Shown here in pieces: positions 19,625 through 25,882 of a stretch of DNA of 36,918 bases. This DNA comes from Burkholderiaceae bacterium (GTDB taxonomy: Bacteria; Pseudomonadota; Gammaproteobacteria; Burkholderiales; Burkholderiaceae): NCBI GenBank assembly GCA_028871175.1, contig JAGWNU010000013.1:1-36918 (forward strand), written 5' to 3'. Under the pieces are notes generated by a model. That model ran no database searches. It was not told where the DNA came from and saw only the letters and a program-made list of their open reading frames with translations. Positions within the stretch are counted from its first letter, which is position 1; every line of letters begins with the position of its first letter. The position numbers and the translations under genes were made by a program.

Positions 19625-19655
19625 TTGACCCTGGAGCTTCTTCAGGGTTTTGAAT
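19625..19655 (+). promoter_or_regulatory. MerR-type promoter and operator of cadA
   Basis: A -35 TTGACC (19625-19630) and a -10 TTGAAT (19650-19655) are separated by 19 bp, the long spacer characteristic of MerR-family activated promoters. The spacer holds the dyad ACCCTG-N9-CAGGGT (19628-19648), with two further matching pairs inside. This is the layout of CadR/PbrR/ZntR sites. The cognate regulator is encoded at 22065-22535. Transcription should start about 19661-19663, that is, at the cadA ATG. Confidence 0.82.
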
Positions 19656-19661
19656 GGAGGC

Positions 19662-22013
19662 ATGAAACCGGATCACGCCCCCTCCCTGCCTTCCCGCGAC
19701 CATGCCGCCAAGCCGGAAACGTCCGGCTGCGGTGGGTGCTGCGGCCACGATCAGTTGGTTGCGACAGACACCTCCCGTCATGCTCATGACCACGATCACA
19801 ACCACGCGCACGAAGCGGATGCGCCTGTTGATGCCGCCGCACGCGCCAGGGCCACCGGCCGCACGACCGTGCGCATCGAGCAGATGGACTGCCCGACCGA
19901 GGAGCGCATGATCCGCACCAAGCTGGGCAGCGCCGAGGGTGTGGTCGCGCTGGAGTTCAACCTGCTGGAGCGCCATCTCACCATCCATCACACCGTAGAT
20001 GACGTGACGCCCTTCCTCGAAGCGTTGCGCGCCATCGGCATGGGTGGCGAGGTGCTGGAAGCGCACGATCGCGCTGCCGCCGCGCCTGCGGAACCTGCCG
20101 GCATTTCGCGCCGCACGTGGCTGCTGGGCGCGGGCGGCGTGGCCGCGTTTGGCGCCGAGGTCATCGCCTGGTCGCTGGGTGATCATGCATGGCCGGTGCT
20201 GGCCTTGGCGCTGGCCTCCATCGCGCTGGCCGGCGGCCCGACGCTGCGCAAGGGCTGGATTGCCTTGCGCGCGCTCACGTTCAACATCAACTTCCTGATG
20301 GCGGTGGCCGTGATCGGCGCGCTGCTGATCGGCAAGTGGGCCGAGGCGGCCATGGTGATCTTCCTGTTTGCCGTGGCGGAGGCCATCGAGGCCCGTGCGC
20401 TGGTGCGCGCCCGCGATGCAGTGCGCGCGCTCACCGCCATTGCGCCCGACACTGCAGAACTGGCTGACGGCAATGGCGGATGGCGCGACGTGGCGGTTGA
20501 AGCAGTCGGCATCGGCGCGCGCCTGCGTGTGCGGACGGGCAGCCGCGTGCCGGTCGACGCGCGCATTGTCAGCGGCCGTGCGGCGCTCGACGAATCCCCC
20601 GTGACCGGCGAGAGCCTGCCGGTGGAGAAGACCATTGGCGACACTGTCCTGGCCGGCACCATCGTCACCGATGGCGTGATCGAGGCGCAGGCCACGGCCG
20701 TGGCGGCCGACAGTACGCTTGCCCGTATTGCCGGCGCCATCCAGCAAGCGCAGGCGCAGCGCGCGCCCACGCAGCGCTTTGTCGACCGGTTTTCGTCCAT
20801 CTACACGCCGGCGATGATGGTGCTGGCGCTGGCGGTTGCCGTCATCGGGCCGCTGGTCACTACCGAAGGCTGGCTGGCGTGGACGTACCGCGCGCTCGTG
20901 CTGCTGGTGATTGCCTGCCCGTGCGCGCTGGTCATTTCCACACCCGTGACGGTCGTGAGCGGCCTGGCTGCGGCTGCGCGGCGTGGCATCGTCGTCAAGG
21001 GTGGCGTCTATCTGGAGAGTGGCAGGCGCCTGCGCGCGCTGACGCTCGACAAGACCGGCACGCTCACCACAGGGCGCCCCGTGCTTGACGCCGTGATGTT
21101 GCCGGACGGTTCACGCCGAGCCGTCGCTGAACTGCATGCAACGACGGACGCGGCACACCTGCGCGCGCTTGCGGTGGCTGCGGCGCTGGACGCCAACACG
21201 ACACACCCGATTGCGGTGGCGATCGTGCAGGCCGCAGCCGCACACGGCGCGGTCGCGGCAGGCGCCATCCAAGACCTTTCCGTGCTGCCTGGCCGTGGTG
21301 TGGCCGGCACGCTCGGCGGCGTGCGCTGGCATCTTGGGAACGCGGCCCTCGTGGCAGACCGCGGCTTCGATACGTCGGCCTGGCGCGCGGCGGCCAATCG
21401 GCTGCAGGCCGAGGGCATGTCCGCCGTCACGCTGTGCGATGCAGGCGGCGCCGTGGCCTTGTTCGGCGTGCGCGACCGCGAGCGCCCGGAAAGTGCCCAG
21501 GCCATCGCCGATTTGCGCGCGCTGGGCGTGCTGCCTGTCATGATTACCGGGGATGACCGCCGCGCGGCGCAGGCGATCGCCAGGACGGTCGGTATCGATC
21601 AGGTGCGCGCAGAACAGCTGCCCGAAGACAAGCAGCGCGTGGTTGGGGAACTTGCCGAGCAGCATGGTTTCGTCGGCATGGTGGGCGATGGCATCAACGA
21701 CGCACCGGCGCTTGCGCGTGCCGATATTGGCTTTGCCATGGGCGCGGCCGGTACCGCAACGGCGCTCGAAGCCGCCGATGTCGCCATCATGGACGACGAC
21801 CCGCGCAAGCTCGCGAGCTTCATCCGCATCAGCCGTCGCACGGTTGCGGTGCTGCGTCAGAACATTGCCCTGGCGCTGGGCATCAAGGCTGTGTTCCTCG
21901 CGCTCGCGGTGATGGGCGAGGCTACGCTGTGGATGGCGATCTTCGCCGATGTGGGCGCAAGCCTGCTGGTCGTCTTCAACGGGCTGCGGGTGATGCGCAC
22001 GCGCGCTGCGTGA
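19662..22013 (+). CDS. cadA: Zn/Cd/Pb-exporting P1B-type ATPase
   Basis: This P1B-2 ATPase has 783 residues from ATG 19662. It has an N-terminal cysteine/histidine-rich metal-binding tail (C23, C26, C27; His cluster about 40-50), then an HMA-like domain with one cysteine, MDCPTEE (C77), typical of Cd/Pb/Zn exporters. Next come the A-domain TGES motif, the CPC transport motif at 419-421 (IACPCALVIS), the phosphorylated D463 in DKTGTLT, TGDDRRA, and GDGINDAP. It pumps divalent heavy metals from the cytoplasm to the periplasm. A GGAGG lies only one base before this ATG, too close to serve, and the MerR-type promoter places the mRNA 5' end at the ATG. A TTG at 19650 falls inside the -10 and is unlikely to be used. 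Confidence 0.92.
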   Translation: MKPDHAPSLPSRDHAAKPETSGCGGCCGHDQLVATDTSRHAHDHDHNHAHEADAPVDAAARARATGRTTVRIEQMDCPTEERMIRTKLGSAEGVVALEFNLLERHLTIHHTVDDVTPFLEALRAIGMGGEVLEAHDRAAAAPAEPAGISRRTWLLGAGGVAAFGAEVIAWSLGDHAWPVLALALASIALAGGPTLRKGWIALRALTFNINFLMAVAVIGALLIGKWAEAAMVIFLFAVAEAIEARALVRARDAVRALTAIAPDTAELADGNGGWRDVAVEAVGIGARLRVRTGSRVPVDARIVSGRAALDESPVTGESLPVEKTIGDTVLAGTIVTDGVIEAQATAVAADSTLARIAGAIQQAQAQRAPTQRFVDRFSSIYTPAMMVLALAVAVIGPLVTTEGWLAWTYRALVLLVIACPCALVISTPVTVVSGLAAAARRGIVVKGGVYLESGRRLRALTLDKTGTLTTGRPVLDAVMLPDGSRRAVAELHATTDAAHLRALAVAAALDANTTHPIAVAIVQAAAAHGAVAAGAIQDLSVLPGRGVAGTLGGVRWHLGNAALVADRGFDTSAWRAAANRLQAEGMSAVTLCDAGGAVALFGVRDRERPESAQAIADLRALGVLPVMITGDDRRAAQAIARTVGIDQVRAEQLPEDKQRVVGELAEQHGFVGMVGDGINDAPALARADIGFAMGAAGTATALEAADVAIMDDDPRKLASFIRISRRTVAVLRQNIALALGIKAVFLALAVMGEATLWMAIFADVGASLLVVFNGLRVMRTRAA

Positions 22014-22064
22014 TCGCTCGGCCGCTTCTGCCTGGGCGCCCTGATGGCAAGCGCAGGGCGCGGG

Positions 22065-22535
22065 TCAGCGATGCACCCCGCGGATGTGCCGATGGCTGTG
22101 TTCGGCGTCGCCGTGGTCGTGGCCGTGAGGGTTCGCTGCGACCGGCTCTTCATGCAGGGATTGCAACACGCCGCATTCGGCCACGGACGCCGCCGTCGTG
22201 CAGCGCCGGCCAATCGCCTCGATCTGGCGCCTGAGCTCGGTCAGTTCGGCGATGCGCGTTTCCACGTGGCGCAGGTGTTCATCGAGCAGGTTGTTGATCT
22301 CTTCGCACGAGGCCTGCGGGTTGGCCTGCAATTCGAGCAGCCGGTGGATTTCAGTGTGTGCCATGTCGAGCGACCGGCACTTCGCAATGAAGGCCAGTTG
22401 CTCGGCATGTTCGGCTGAGTAGACGCGGTAGTTGTTGGCGGCGCGCGCCGGCGGCGGCAGCAGGCCCTGCGCCTCATAGAAGCGGATGGTTTCGATGCTG
22501 ATGCCCGTGCGCTGGGCGAGCTCGCCAATTTTCAT
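22065..22535 (-). CDS. cadR: Cd(II)/Pb(II)-responsive MerR-family regulator
   Basis: This 156-residue MerR protein has a winged helix at residues 1-70 (MKIGELAQRTGISIETIRFYE) and a long dimerisation helix. It has the three cysteines expected of CadR/PbrR sensors: one in AKCRSLDM, one in SCEEINNL and one in ECGVLQ. It also has a histidine-rich C-terminal tail (HGHDHGDAEHSHRH), as in Pseudomonas CadR. It activates the cadA promoter by unwinding its 19-bp spacer. Here it is convergent with cadA, not divergent as in many relatives, and lies 17 bp downstream of the cysteine-rich protein gene, so it is probably co-transcribed with that gene. Confidence 0.9.
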   Translation of the reverse strand: MKIGELAQRTGISIETIRFYEAQGLLPPPARAANNYRVYSAEHAEQLAFIAKCRSLDMAHTEIHRLLELQANPQASCEEINNLLDEHLRHVETRIAELTELRRQIEAIGRRCTTAASVAECGVLQSLHEEPVAANPHGHDHGDAEHSHRHIRGVHR

Positions 22536-22552
22536 ACGCGTTTGCGGGAAGG

Positions 22553-22939
22553 TCAGAAGACGGTGGGTTCGGTGGTTACGGCTTCGACACCGGCCACCTT
22601 CAGGCAAGCGTCCAGGCAGGCGCGACACGCCGCTGCGCAGGCCGTGCAATGGCCCTGGTCGTGATGATCGCATGCTTCGGCGCACTGGCTGCAGATCTCG
22701 GCGCAGTCTTCGAGCAGCAGCTCTGCGAACTCACTGTTGCGCTCCAGGAAGGCGCGGGTCACGGCGCAGTATTGCGCGCAATCCGTGCACACGCTGATGC
22801 AGCGTGCCATGGCTTCGGCGTGGCCGTTCTTGTTGCATTCCGTCGCGCAATGATTGCAAGCGTTTTCACAGGCCTGGAGCGCCTGGACCACACTGGCAAA
22901 ACGCTTGGCATTCTCTTTCGCGGTCGGACGATTGGTCAT
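22553..22939 (-). CDS. Four-helix bundle metal-binding protein (Csp/DUF326 family)
   Basis: The 128-residue protein carries 17 cysteines arranged in CxxxCxxC-type repeats on successive helices (CENACNHCATEC, CISVCTDCAQYC, CAEICSQCAEAC, CTACAAACRACLDAC). This is the pattern of copper-storage proteins (Csp), which bind many Cu(I) ions inside a four-helix bundle. There is no signal or Tat peptide, so it is the cytosolic type (Csp3-like). GGAGA precedes the ATG at 22939. It precedes cadR in the same orientation, which suggests that it may buffer Cd, Pb or Zn as well as Cu (inference). Confidence 0.9.
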   Translation of the reverse strand: MTNRPTAKENAKRFASVVQALQACENACNHCATECNKNGHAEAMARCISVCTDCAQYCAVTRAFLERNSEFAELLLEDCAEICSQCAEACDHHDQGHCTACAAACRACLDACLKVAGVEAVTTEPTVF

Positions 22940-22987
22940 GTCGGTTCTCCTTGGGCGGTGGATGTGCACGCTCGCGCGCTTTGGACA

Positions 22988-23019
22988 GGATGAGCCCAGG
23001 CGTCGCCTGGGACCCATCC
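22988..23019. terminator. GC-rich hairpin between leuA and the csp-cadR unit
   Basis: CCCAGGC-GTC-GCCTGGG with flanking GGATG / CATCC forms a strong stem-loop about 50-80 bases after the leuA stop. On the leuA strand it lacks a T-run, so it may be a Rho-dependent end, an mRNA-stabilising hairpin, or part of the csp 5' region. Confidence 0.4.
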
Positions 23020-23066: not shown

Positions 23067-24779
23067 TTACGCTACCGTTGCCTGGGCACTACTGCGGCGC
23101 AGCATGCCTTGGCCGGTGCGTGCGATCAGGCGATTGACCCCGCCCACCACGGCACGAATCGACGCGGTCGTGAGGTTCGCATCCACGCCCACGCCGAACA
23201 CGCTGCCCGCCACGCCTGTTGCCGCCAGTTCCGCAAACGCAATGGCATCGGCGTTGGCGCCCTGGCCCAGCGCACGTTCCTCGTAGTGATGGATCGAGAC
23301 CGGTGCGGTCAGCACATGCGACAGCGCATGCACCAGCGCATCGAGCGGGCCATTGCCGCTGCCTTCGCAAATATGCTCGTGATCGTCGATGTTGACGACC
23401 AGGCGGATGTGCTGGCTGCCATCGTCGCGCTCGGTCAGGCGGTGCGATACGTAGCCGATCGCACCATCGCTGCGCAGGTAAGTCTGCTGAAACAGCGCCC
23501 AGATGTCGGCGCCGGTGGCTTCGCGGCCACTGGCATCGGTCAGCTTTTGCACCGTGCTGCTGAACTCGACCTGCAGGCGGCGCGGCATCGCCACGCCATA
23601 GCCGGATTCCAGCAGATACGCGATGCCGCCCTTGCCCGACTGGCTGTTCACGCGAATGATCGAGTCATACGTGCGGCCAACGTCGGCCGGGTCGATGGGC
23701 AGGTAGGGCATTTCCCACAGCGCATCGGGTTTCTGCACCGCAAAGCCCTTCTTGATGGCGTCCTGGTGCGAGCCCGAGAACGCCGTGAACACCAGGTCGC
23801 CCACGTACGGATGGCGCGGATGCACCGGCAGCTGTGTGCAGTCTTCGCAGGTCCGTGCCACGTCATTGATGTGCGAGAAATCCAGCTCCGGATCCACGCC
23901 TTGCGAATACAGGTTCAACGCCAGCGTGACGAGATCCACGTTTCCGGTGCGCTCGCCGTTGCCGAACAGGCAACCTTCCACGCGATCGGCGCCCGCCATC
24001 ACCGCCAGTTCAGCCGCTGCCACGGCCGTGCCGCGGTCATTGTGCGGATGCACGGAGAGGATGATCGAATCGCGGCGCGCCAGGTTGCGATGCATCCATT
24101 CGATCTGGTCTGCGTAGATGTTTGGCGTGGCCATCTCTACCGTGGCAGGCAGGTTGAAGATGATCTTGTGCTCAGGCGTCGGTTCCCAGACCTCGGTCAC
24201 CGCGTTGCAGACCTCCAGCGCGAAATCCAGCTCGGTGCCGCTGAAGACTTCGGGGCTGTATTGGTACGTCCACTGCGTCTCGGGCATCGTTTCCGCAATC
24301 TCGCGGATCAGCTTGGCGCTTTGCACGGCAATGCGCTTGACGCCCTCGCGGTCGGTGTTGAACACCGTGCGGCGGAACACCGGCGCGGTCGCGTTGTAGA
24401 CATGGATGATGGCGCGCTTCGCGCCGCGCAGCGATTCCATCGTGCGGCGGATCAGGTCTTCGCGCGCCTGCGTCAGCACTTCGATGGCCACGCCGTCGGG
24501 GATGTGTCCACCCTCGATCAGCTCGCGCACAAAATCAAAATCGGTTTGAGAGGCGGCGGGGAAAGCAGCTTCGATTTCCTTGAAGCCGATCTGCACGAGC
24601 ATCTTGAACATGCGCATCTTGCGCTCGGCGTTCATGGGCTCGAACAGGGCCTGGTTGCCGTCGCGCAGGTCCGTGCTCATCCAGATCGGGGCACGGGTGA
24701 TGGTCTTGTTGGGCCAGGTGCGATCGGCGAGGGCGATTGCGGGGAAGGGGCGGTACTTGGTGGCGGGGTTCTTCAACAT
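23067..24779 (-). CDS. leuA: 2-isopropylmalate synthase
   Basis: A 570-residue enzyme that condenses acetyl-CoA with 2-ketoisovalerate, the committed step of leucine synthesis. The length fits the longer LeuA class rather than the approximately 515-residue enterobacterial class. R39-D40 in [11 protein letters not shown] are the catalytic pair. The metal-binding histidines are in [11 protein letters not shown], and [14 protein letters not shown] is the second family signature. The C-terminal domain (about 430-560) is the leucine-binding regulatory domain. The gene is preceded on its own strand by a 281-nt leader that carries a leucine-rich leader peptide, indicating transcriptional or translational attenuation in addition to feedback inhibition. 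Confidence 0.93.
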
Positions 24780-25002
24780 GGGGAGTGCGTCCTGTGAGAT
24801 CGAGATCGGGTTCGTACAACGGGGACGGCCGCGCGGGCGGCGTCCGGGGTGGCCGGAATCGGGTTCGGGATGTGGCGGCCAGACAGCCACGGGCGCGTGG
24901 TCTGGCAACCGGTCAGTAGTCGTAGCGAAAGCGGGATCGAGGCAGGCATGAGCGGCTCCAACGATTCGGCGCACGGACTGCGCCACACACAAGGCCCGTC
25001 GC

Positions 25003-25072
25003 CGCGTAGGGCACGGACCGGTCAAACACCGGAACGAGGGGAAAAGAGAGGTCTACGCGCTTACACGCGTAG
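25003..25072 (-). promoter_or_regulatory. Leu leader RNA with mutually exclusive stems
   Basis: On the leuA strand, segment 1 is CTACGCG (25072-25066, overlapping the last Leu/Arg/Val codons of the leader peptide), segment 2 is CGCGTAG (25059-25053) and segment 3 is again CTACGCG (25009-25003). Segment 2 can pair with either 1 (6-base loop) or 3 (43-base loop), each 7 bp perfect. A smaller hairpin (CCGGT-GTTTG-ACCGG) lies in the 2:3 loop. The rest of 24780-25002 has another 6-bp stem GGCGCA / TGCGCC (24967-24983), but I see no hairpin followed by a U-tract. Confidence 0.6.
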
Positions 25073-25153
25073 TAGCGAAGCGGATAGCAGACCGCGCACG
25101 CACGAGAGGATGCGCGCTTGAGCGGAGAGGAGGGTGGTCTGCTGGAAGTGCAT
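25061..25153 (-). CDS. leuL: Leucine-rich leader peptide of leuA
   Basis: A 30-codon frame ends in TAA just inside the stem region. It has seven leucines: L8-L9 (CTC CTC), L16 (CTC), L22-L23 (CTG CTA) and L27-L28 (CTA CTA). CTA is a rare leucine codon in this GC-rich sequence, and the last four leucines fall within the final nine codons, right at the 1:2 stem. No Shine-Dalgarno precedes the ATG. The predicted promoter puts the transcription start at the A of the ATG (25153), so translation would be leaderless. The symbol leuL is used by analogy with enterobacterial leucine leader peptides. Confidence 0.7.
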   Translation of the reverse strand: MHFQQTTLLSAQARILSCVRGLLSASLLRV

Positions 25154-25159
25154 TGGTTG

Positions 25160-25189
25160 ATGATGCTGGCGCGGCGACGATGTTGTCAA
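25160..25189 (-). promoter_or_regulatory. Predicted promoter of the leu leader and leuA
   Basis: On the minus strand a perfect -35 TTGACA (25189-25184) and a -10 CATCAT (25165-25160, 4 of 6 consensus) are separated by 18 bp. The start would be at about 25153, the first base of the leader peptide ATG. The -10 is weak, so the exact start needs mapping. Confidence 0.6.
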
Positions 25190-25423
25190 GGCGCCGGGGC
25201 AGGTTGTTGGCGGTTTGCCTCGCTTTCCGCACGGATAGGGCCGCGAGCGCGGGTGCATCAAGATGGATCAGCCCCGCACATGCCAGGCCGGCCCCATGTG
25301 AAGTGGCCGCCAGCAAAACCCGGCCGAACCTGCTTTAATACACCCCGTTCATGCCGCCAGCCCGCTGTATCAAAGGGTTCATAACGGTACGACTCCCTCA
25401 CGCCCCACAAGGAGAATCCCCCA

Positions 25424-25882
25424 ATGGTCACGTTGAATGTCAACGGTAAACCGGTGGAAGTTGATGCAGATCCGTCGACGCCGCTGCTCTGGGCGCTGCG
25501 CGACAACCTTGGCCTGACCGGCACGAAATTCGGTTGCGGCGTCGCATCGTGCGGCGCCTGCACGGTGCACCTGAACGGCCAGCCCACACGCAGTTGCGTG
25601 CTGCCGATTTCCGCAGTGGTCGGCCAGCAGATCACCACCTCCGAACATATCGCCGACGACAAGATCGGCAAGGCCGTCCTCGATGCCTGGGTCAAGCACG
25701 ATGTGGCGCAGTGCGGCTACTGCCAGAGCGGCCAGATGATGAGCGCGGTGGGTTTGCTGCGCACCAAGAAGAAGCCGACTGACGCCGATATCGACAGCGC
25801 CATGGCCGGCAACCTGTGCCGTTGCGCGACGTATCAGCGCATTCGTGCGGCGATTCACGATGCCGCGAAATCGCTGGCCTGA
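25424..25882 (+). CDS. iorA: Isoquinoline 1-oxidoreductase-like alpha subunit, [2Fe-2S] protein
   Basis: This 152-residue small subunit of a molybdenum hydroxylase has a plant-type ferredoxin domain with C38, C43, C46 and C58, and a C-terminal helical [2Fe-2S] domain with C97, C100, C132 and C134 (QCGYCQSGQ ... NLCRCATYQRI). It passes electrons from the Mo centre of the large subunit. AAGGAG lies 8 bases before ATG 25424. The large subunit gene follows after 19 bp. The IorAB-type two-subunit enzymes lack an FAD subunit and hand electrons to a cytochrome or another acceptor, which is not encoded here. Confidence 0.92.
   Translation: MVTLNVNGKPVEVDADPSTPLLWALRDNLGLTGTKFGCGVASCGACTVHLNGQPTRSCVLPISAVVGQQITTSEHIADDKIGKAVLDAWVKHDVAQCGYCQSGQMMSAVGLLRTKKKPTDADIDSAMAGNLCRCATYQRIRAAIHDAAKSLA

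Follow-up and report, generated by a model that had tools for sequence, protein, structure and literature searches.

A predicted leaderless leucine leader, a second Leu-codon frame and a candidate pseudoknot upstream of leuA in Burkholderiaceae

The leu leader of enterobacteria lies upstream of leuA, carries rare Leu codons near its end and is led by a Shine-Dalgarno (SD) sequence. How could a leucine leader serve leuA if its ribosomes were to load on the very 5' end of the mRNA, and what lies between such a leader and the gene? The question is raised by a 36,918-nt stretch of DNA from a Burkholderiaceae bacterium (contig JAGWNU010000013.1 of assembly GCA_028871175.1; hereafter the window, meaning the whole stretch analysed), in which an earlier note, made from the sequence alone, had read a Leu-rich frame upstream of leuA as a leaderless leader peptide. 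The elements that bear on this reading are the following.

23067..24779, minus strand: leuA, encoding 2-isopropylmalate synthase (TIGR00970 type, 570 aa; TIGR00970 score over its cut-off)
25061..25153, minus strand: ORF1, a 30-codon leucine leader predicted to be leaderless (sequence MHFQQTTLLSAQARILSCVRGLLSASLLRV and stop; genus alignment)
25070..25090, minus strand: control codons CTG CTA TCC GCT TCG CTA CTA of ORF1, the four Leu codons identical in 16 genomes
25160..25165, minus strand: -10 hexamer CATCAT, after an 18-nt spacer and ending 6 nt before the ORF1 ATG
25184..25189, minus strand: -35 hexamer TTGACA, kept in 16/16 genus sequences

ORF1 has the make-up of a leucine leader, being short, on the same strand as leuA and upstream of it, with its Leu codons clustered: seven of its codons specify Leu, three of these are CTA, four fall within the last nine codons, and the frame ends 281 nt before the leuA ATG at 24779. 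The coordinates and all of these counts, the 30 codons included, had been given correctly in the earlier note, which left unstated that leader and leuA both lie on the minus strand. Among the 617 Leu codons of 12 long ORFs of the window that were taken as genes, 6 (0.97%) are CTA, compared with three of seven in ORF1. The TTGACA-18-CATCAT pair is the sole promoter-like site found on either strand of 24740-25430 (10 of 12 matches; 0.1 ± 0.2 sites in shuffles). The seventh base downstream of the -10 hexamer is the A of the ORF1 ATG, a spacing that puts the predicted +1 on the start codon, and no SD sequence precedes it.

All 16 searched genomes of the window's genus, which is probably Ralstonia, contain leuA (the other 15 proteins are 93–97% identical to that of the window), and the 16 upstream regions can be aligned. 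ORF1 runs without interruption to its UAA in every one of them, with 30 codons in 13 and 32 in three, and CTG CTA ... CTA CTA is invariant in 16/16; lack of conservation of the Leu codons in relatives, which the earlier note had named as an outcome that would speak against its reading, was not observed. The -10 element has the form CANTAT in 14 of the 16, and L085, L094 and L096 share a 6-nt in-frame insertion, TCG CTA, that adds one CTA codon. The pattern TTGACA-N29..31-ATG-N55..85-CTACTA has a single match per genome, at leuA, in 15 of the 16 genomes and none in the remaining one (G012, locus L093), and a reversed control pattern has no match in any of the 16. The ORF1 ATG is kept in the same proportion, 15/16: L093 has ACG at this position, yet retains TTGACA, the Leu codons and the stop, which would fit a lost leader, ACG serving as the start codon, or an error in the sequence. 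Amino-acid-level selection on ORF1 was not detected in a codon test (synonymous fraction 0.41 versus 0.32 expected).

As to the surroundings of leuA, the DNA adjoining its end (window 19650-23017) holds a gene probably encoding a heavy-metal P-type ATPase, together with a MerR-like regulator and a small protein rich in Cys, as judged from translations read by eye. Genome G000 encodes a second LeuA-like protein with 30% identity (G000:C32:7966-9546, L082). Rfam gave no match at the gathering score across the whole window, nor up to E 5 within 24700-25430.

To what extent does this start arrangement recur beyond the genus? We compiled 161 leuA upstream loci from named genomes, other genomes of the family, plasmid and chromid records and model hits. 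An ATG-initiated ORF with at least four Leu in 10 codons is found upstream of leuA at 108 of these, and 83, 15 of them from the window's genus, remain under a stricter score in which CTA counts as well. TTGACA (at least five of six positions) is present at -34..-38 from an in-frame ATG in 72 of the 83 leaders, 59 of them exact (35 at -36 and 31 at -37), compared with 17 of the 624 control ATGs taken from these regions, one of them exact; where a leader had several in-frame ATGs the one with the best -35 was chosen, which favours the leader side of this comparison. Omitting the genus rows leaves 57 of 68, in good agreement with the earlier note's placement of the predicted start at the A of the ATG behind TTGACA/CATCAT with 18-bp spacing, and with its identification of a leucine leader in a beta-proteobacterium. 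A 4-base SD match occurs at none of the 83 leader ATGs versus 54 of the 83 leuA starts, which extends to the wider set the lack of an SD that the note had pointed out for this one leader. The 83 leaders form 24 clusters by peptide similarity; 15 clusters show the -35 spacing and nine do not. The nine include L128, L069, L170 and L171, whose leaders run directly onto a pseudoknot (see below) and which are not leaderless by the spacing criterion. The peptides themselves are dissimilar (MHFQQTT...GLLSASLLRV in the window, MYRAQTT...GLGLLLRASI in Paraburkholderia, with others ending SLRLA), so what is conserved is the start position and the Leu codons. Sequence comparison thus gives good support to ORF1 as a leaderless leucine leader with its +1 predicted at the A of the ATG. 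In the Thiomonas-like loci L008 and L011-L013, leuA is preceded by a different leader, likewise conserved and containing Leu (...RGLMLRLLRVDVERRLRPAR).

Several folds could connect translation of ORF1 to the fate of the transcript.

25136..25144, minus strand: 5' arm of the proposed stem 1:2, CAGCAGACC, pairing with 25093-25086 (GGTCTGCT)
25053..25072, minus strand: terminator-like hairpin CTACGCG..CGCGTAG of the consensus fold, over the last ORF1 codons, its loop holding the UAA stop
25031..25052, minus strand: pyrimidine-rich tract ACCTCTCTTTTCCCCTCGTTCC, mostly unpaired in the consensus fold
25018..25032, minus strand: hairpin CCGGT-gtttg-ACCGG, kept in the genus

Stem 1:2 overlies the first Leu pair of ORF1, and the fold of Methylobacillus L009 contains the same stem. 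The stop-in-loop hairpin overlaps CTA28, with folds of the same kind in L122 and L146, and the pyrimidine tract behind it is a candidate for a weak U-tract or a Rho-loading site. A single terminator-like site was found, versus 0.3 ± 0.7 in shuffles, and the whole leader of the window is mildly more stable than its shuffles (z -1.68; 5 of 100 shuffles were as good). None of the 51 pairs of the ORF1-to-ORF2 consensus fold, stem 1:2 included, has changed on both sides among 15 genus sequences. A pairing of the ORF2 SD with GCTTC of ORF1, part of the same fold, was set aside because it comprises only five pairs and is broken in one sequence.

The region between ORF1 and leuA contains two further elements that the earlier note had overlooked, a second frame with Leu codons and a candidate pseudoknot.

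24956..24961, minus strand: SD sequence of ORF2, TTGGAG in 15/16 genus sequences (TGAGAG in L085)
24773..24949, minus strand: ORF2, a 58-codon frame with putative translation; ATG, open frame and end position kept in 16/16
24849..24910, minus strand: candidate H-type pseudoknot (layout scan, P1 alignment and covariance model)
24910-24900 with 24884-24874, minus strand: pseudoknot helix P1, one mismatch (GGTTGCCAGAC/GTCTGGCCGCC)
24890-24886 (GTGGC) with GCCAC at 24876-24872, overlapping P1, or at 24853-24849, minus strand: pseudoknot helix P2, predicted

Near its start ORF2 reads CTT TCG CTA CGA CTA (TTT for CTT in L088), and its UGA overlaps the leuA start in ATGTTGA. It ends 7 nt into leuA in 16/16, an end position that follows from ATGTTGA itself and has a chance of one frame in three. 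Its length, stop included, is 59, 62, 63 or 66 codons across the genus, and the gap between ORF1 and ORF2 varies freely from 106 to 122 nt, being 111 nt in the window. Stops are rare in the other two frames of this region as well (3/16 and 5/16), and openness alone therefore says little. A selected ORF2 peptide was considered and found unsupported (synonymous fraction 0.25 versus 0.30 expected); since the codon tests reveal no selection at the amino-acid level, conservation of ORF2 may be due to the RNA alone, and that of codons 1-26 is more easily accounted for by RNA structure.

P1 closes a loop containing GTGGC, which is able to pair with a downstream GCCAC. In a scan for this layout, the limits of which were fixed after the first examples, 25 of 160 loci scored above the best of 159 shuffles (18.95), among them Herbaspirillum, Cupriavidus, Methyloversatilis, Denitromonas, Parvibaculum, Ochrobactrum, R. 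leguminosarum and three of the four actinobacteria. The window's genus scored 18-20: 14 of its 16 loci did not exceed the best shuffle, only L093 and L096 exceeded all, and the best match in L083 lay elsewhere. Loci without a matching layout scored nearly as high (L136 18.6; L013 and L137 17.9). With genus scores this near to those of shuffles, the case for a pseudoknot in the genus rests on homology to the stronger loci. In an alignment of 20 loci selected for having P1 (A1), 96.4% of the P1 cells are paired and seven of the 11 pairs have changed on both sides, whereas slid controls reach at most 53.6%. P2 shows matched changes in some loci (GTGGC/GCCAC, GCGAC/GTCGC in L014, CCGGC/GCCGG in L155).

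With a covariance model built on P1, the window's genome gives one significant match, which is a training sequence; the next best has E 0.48. Nine of 274 genomes of the class match it, including the window's own, with one match each. Seven of the eight matches in other genomes lie just upstream of leuA, the sequences of L166 and L167 being identical; the eighth, L173 (G310), is a weak match (E 7.6e-4) with no leuA found in the stretch searched. Alpha-proteobacterial matches are L162 (5.6e-5) and L163 (8.2e-5), and the Burkholderia, Paraburkholderia and Pandoraea loci tested against the model gave nothing significant. Of 252 genomes of the class sampled separately, 51 have the long-type leuA and eight of these 51 are among the P1 matches, which makes the pseudoknot module far from universal. 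Alpha-proteobacterial copies of leuA in Ochrobactrum (L162, by scan and model) and Shinella (L164, by eye only) have Leu codons before a similar pseudoknot-like fold with the P2 sequence changed. The Herbaspirillum loci L078 and L080, from H. frisingense and H. chlorophenolicum, show a tandem as in the window, i.e. a leaderless CTA-rich leader and then a second short ORF before a long pseudoknot; this ORF ends ...PLLAL in L080 and, on reading, ...PPLAL in L078.

Could ORF1 be all that matters, with classical attenuation at an intrinsic terminator formed by the hairpin 25072-25053 and CTCTCTTTT, while ORF2 and the pseudoknot are incidental parts of the 5' UTR? The stop codon in the hairpin loop, the T-rich tail and stem 1:2, a competitor that spans the first Leu pair, would all suit such a mechanism. 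However, the terminator score is not above that of shuffles, the tail after the hairpin is a mixture of C and U and, by position, a ribosome would cover the hairpin both when stalled at CTA27/28 and when at the stop. Furthermore, P1 covaries and tracks leuA, which makes an incidental pseudoknot unlikely. We give this explanation perhaps one chance in four. Regulation through the RNA only, with a protein binding the pseudoknot and neither ORF translated for control, would account for the lack of amino-acid-level selection in both ORFs and would find a parallel in the S. coelicolor leuA leader, where, according to PMC1262725, Leu-codon mutations behaved unlike classical attenuation. It sits poorly with a start codon held at a fixed distance from the promoter, with Leu and CTA clusters kept in dissimilar peptides and with the in-frame TCG CTA insertions of three genomes, and we regard it as improbable. 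That the promoter fit is coincidental, transcription starting elsewhere and ORF1 being read from a longer leader, is highly improbable, since despite the weak match of CATCAT to a -10 element the spacing recurs in 72/83 loci compared with 17/624 control ATGs, and an SD match in 0/83.

The reading we prefer, with a probability of about 0.7, is that the leuA leader senses leucine through two tandem modules, as a variant form of ribosome-mediated control. It builds on features that the comparison of genomes supports, namely the promoter position, the lack of an SD, the conserved frame and Leu codons, and the covarying P1. In the first module, ORF1, transcription would start at the A of the ATG, and the ribosome would consequently load on a bare 5' end. 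If leucyl-tRNA reading the rare CUA codons ran short, the ribosome would stall near the end of ORF1; stalled at CTA27/28 it would block the stop-in-loop hairpin and so keep hairpin and pyrimidine tract from halting transcription or letting Rho load. Release would permit the hairpin, as the presumed off-state structure, and expose the pyrimidine tract, with intrinsic termination, Rho-dependent termination or translational control as possible outcomes; the direction of control, and the level at which it acts, are deduced from this layout. In the second module, 111 nt downstream, the SD-led frame with its CTT/CTA/CTA codons would run onto the pseudoknot. Since the ORF2 stop overlaps the leuA start, ribosome movement through ORF2, if it is translated, could set leuA translation by coupling, and we suggest that ORF2 and pseudoknot together provide a second, translational step.

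A broader version of the tandem reading would see in it a widespread two-tier sensor, in which a leaderless 5'-end leader acts on transcription and a ribosome-gated pseudoknot at leuA on translation, the pseudoknot belonging to one ancient family common to actinobacteria, alpha- and beta-proteobacteria and travelling with the long-type leuA. This we put forward tentatively, at somewhat less than even odds.

The comparative evidence points to leaderless initiation as a fixed part of how leucine leaders are designed across much of the Burkholderiaceae sampled, and in some relatives, and not as a curiosity of one genome. It makes testable how a ribosome that loads at the 5' end reaches the control codons in time. 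It also extends the pseudoknot of the actinobacterial leuA type to proteobacteria, where P1 covaries and P2 shows matched changes, and tandem modules of this kind would offer a natural setting in which to tell apart transcriptional and translational control by one amino acid.

How does this arrangement relate to known systems? The closest parallel in layout is the LEU element of actinobacteria (Seliverstov et al. 2005; PMC1262725). As described there, it comprises an ORF with a run of Leu codons, a pseudoknot, and a base stem in which the Leu codons pair with the leuA SD; the paper also reports that mutating Leu codons in the leuA leader of S. coelicolor gave results at odds with classical attenuation, and proposes protein binding to the pseudoknot. 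Like the LEU element, the window places a Leu-codon ORF and after it a candidate pseudoknot ahead of leuA, the pseudoknot being weaker in the genus than elsewhere and the Leu codons just before it interrupted by TCG and CGA. Our scan found the order P1-loop-P2-P1'-P2' in the actinobacterial loci L155, L156 and L158, not in L157. The actinobacterial loci differ from ours in sequence, none of L155-L158 being matched by the P1 model (R1), and in the position of the leader stop, which lies in the loop in L155 and L158, whereas ORF2 of the window reads on to leuA. The base stem is absent from the six genus genomes tested, in which the longest complement is 4-5 nt and not above shuffles. Nine of the 31 loci tested for complementarity between Leu codons and leuA SD have p ≤ 0.05 against shuffles: the Cupriavidus-type L115, L116 and L159 (11 nt) and L117 and L120 (9 nt), the Rhodocyclales-type L019, L023 and L029 (9 nt), and Microbacterium L156 (10 nt). 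The complement is not above shuffles in the actinobacterial L155 and L158, for which the leuA starts were guessed. Lacking the base stem, the window element resembles the LEU element in layout and is not filed as a member. In the Cupriavidus-type L115, L116 and L159 the leader Leu region (CTTCCTCGCTA) has an 11-nt perfect complement to the leuA SD (TAGCGAGGAAG) and the leader stop lies within the pseudoknot loop, i.e. the full LEU-element layout in a beta-proteobacterium.

Leaderless leaders have precedents. In Streptomyces lividans the leader leuL1, which precedes leuA, is reported to be leaderless (PMC8079986); like ORF1 it is short and Leu-rich, and it is described as lacking a typical Rho-independent terminator. 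It differs in being actinobacterial, in its 15 codons and in that the passages on it describe one leader and no second Leu-codon frame. The trpL RNA of Sinorhizobium meliloti (peTrpL/rnTrpL attenuator) similarly begins with the ATG of its leader ORF; it responds to tryptophan and is terminator-based, with no second module described in the excerpts of PMC7298713. The earlier note's interpretation of a leucine leader with a predicted start at its ATG is supported by the comparison; its view that leaderless initiation and a leucine leader are an unusual combination is not, given these two cases. LeuL of Campylobacter jejuni shares with ORF1 rare Leu codons near the leader end and a position upstream of leuA, the difference being that the C. 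jejuni small ORFs were found, according to PMC3847290, through an upstream ribosome binding site. Among the literature matches listed, with subscription journals mostly outside, there was nothing on a beta-proteobacterial leader family, on promoter-start spacing or on a proteobacterial pseudoknot. The main texts of the transcription start site papers on B. cenocepacia and C. metallidurans contain none of 'leader peptide', 'leucine' and 'attenuat', nor 'isopropylmalate' in the case of B. cenocepacia or 'leuA' in that of C. metallidurans. The leaderless leucine leader as such was already known; what the sequences add to it appears to be a beta-proteobacterial leader family, a fixed spacing between promoter and start codon, and a proteobacterial counterpart of the pseudoknot.
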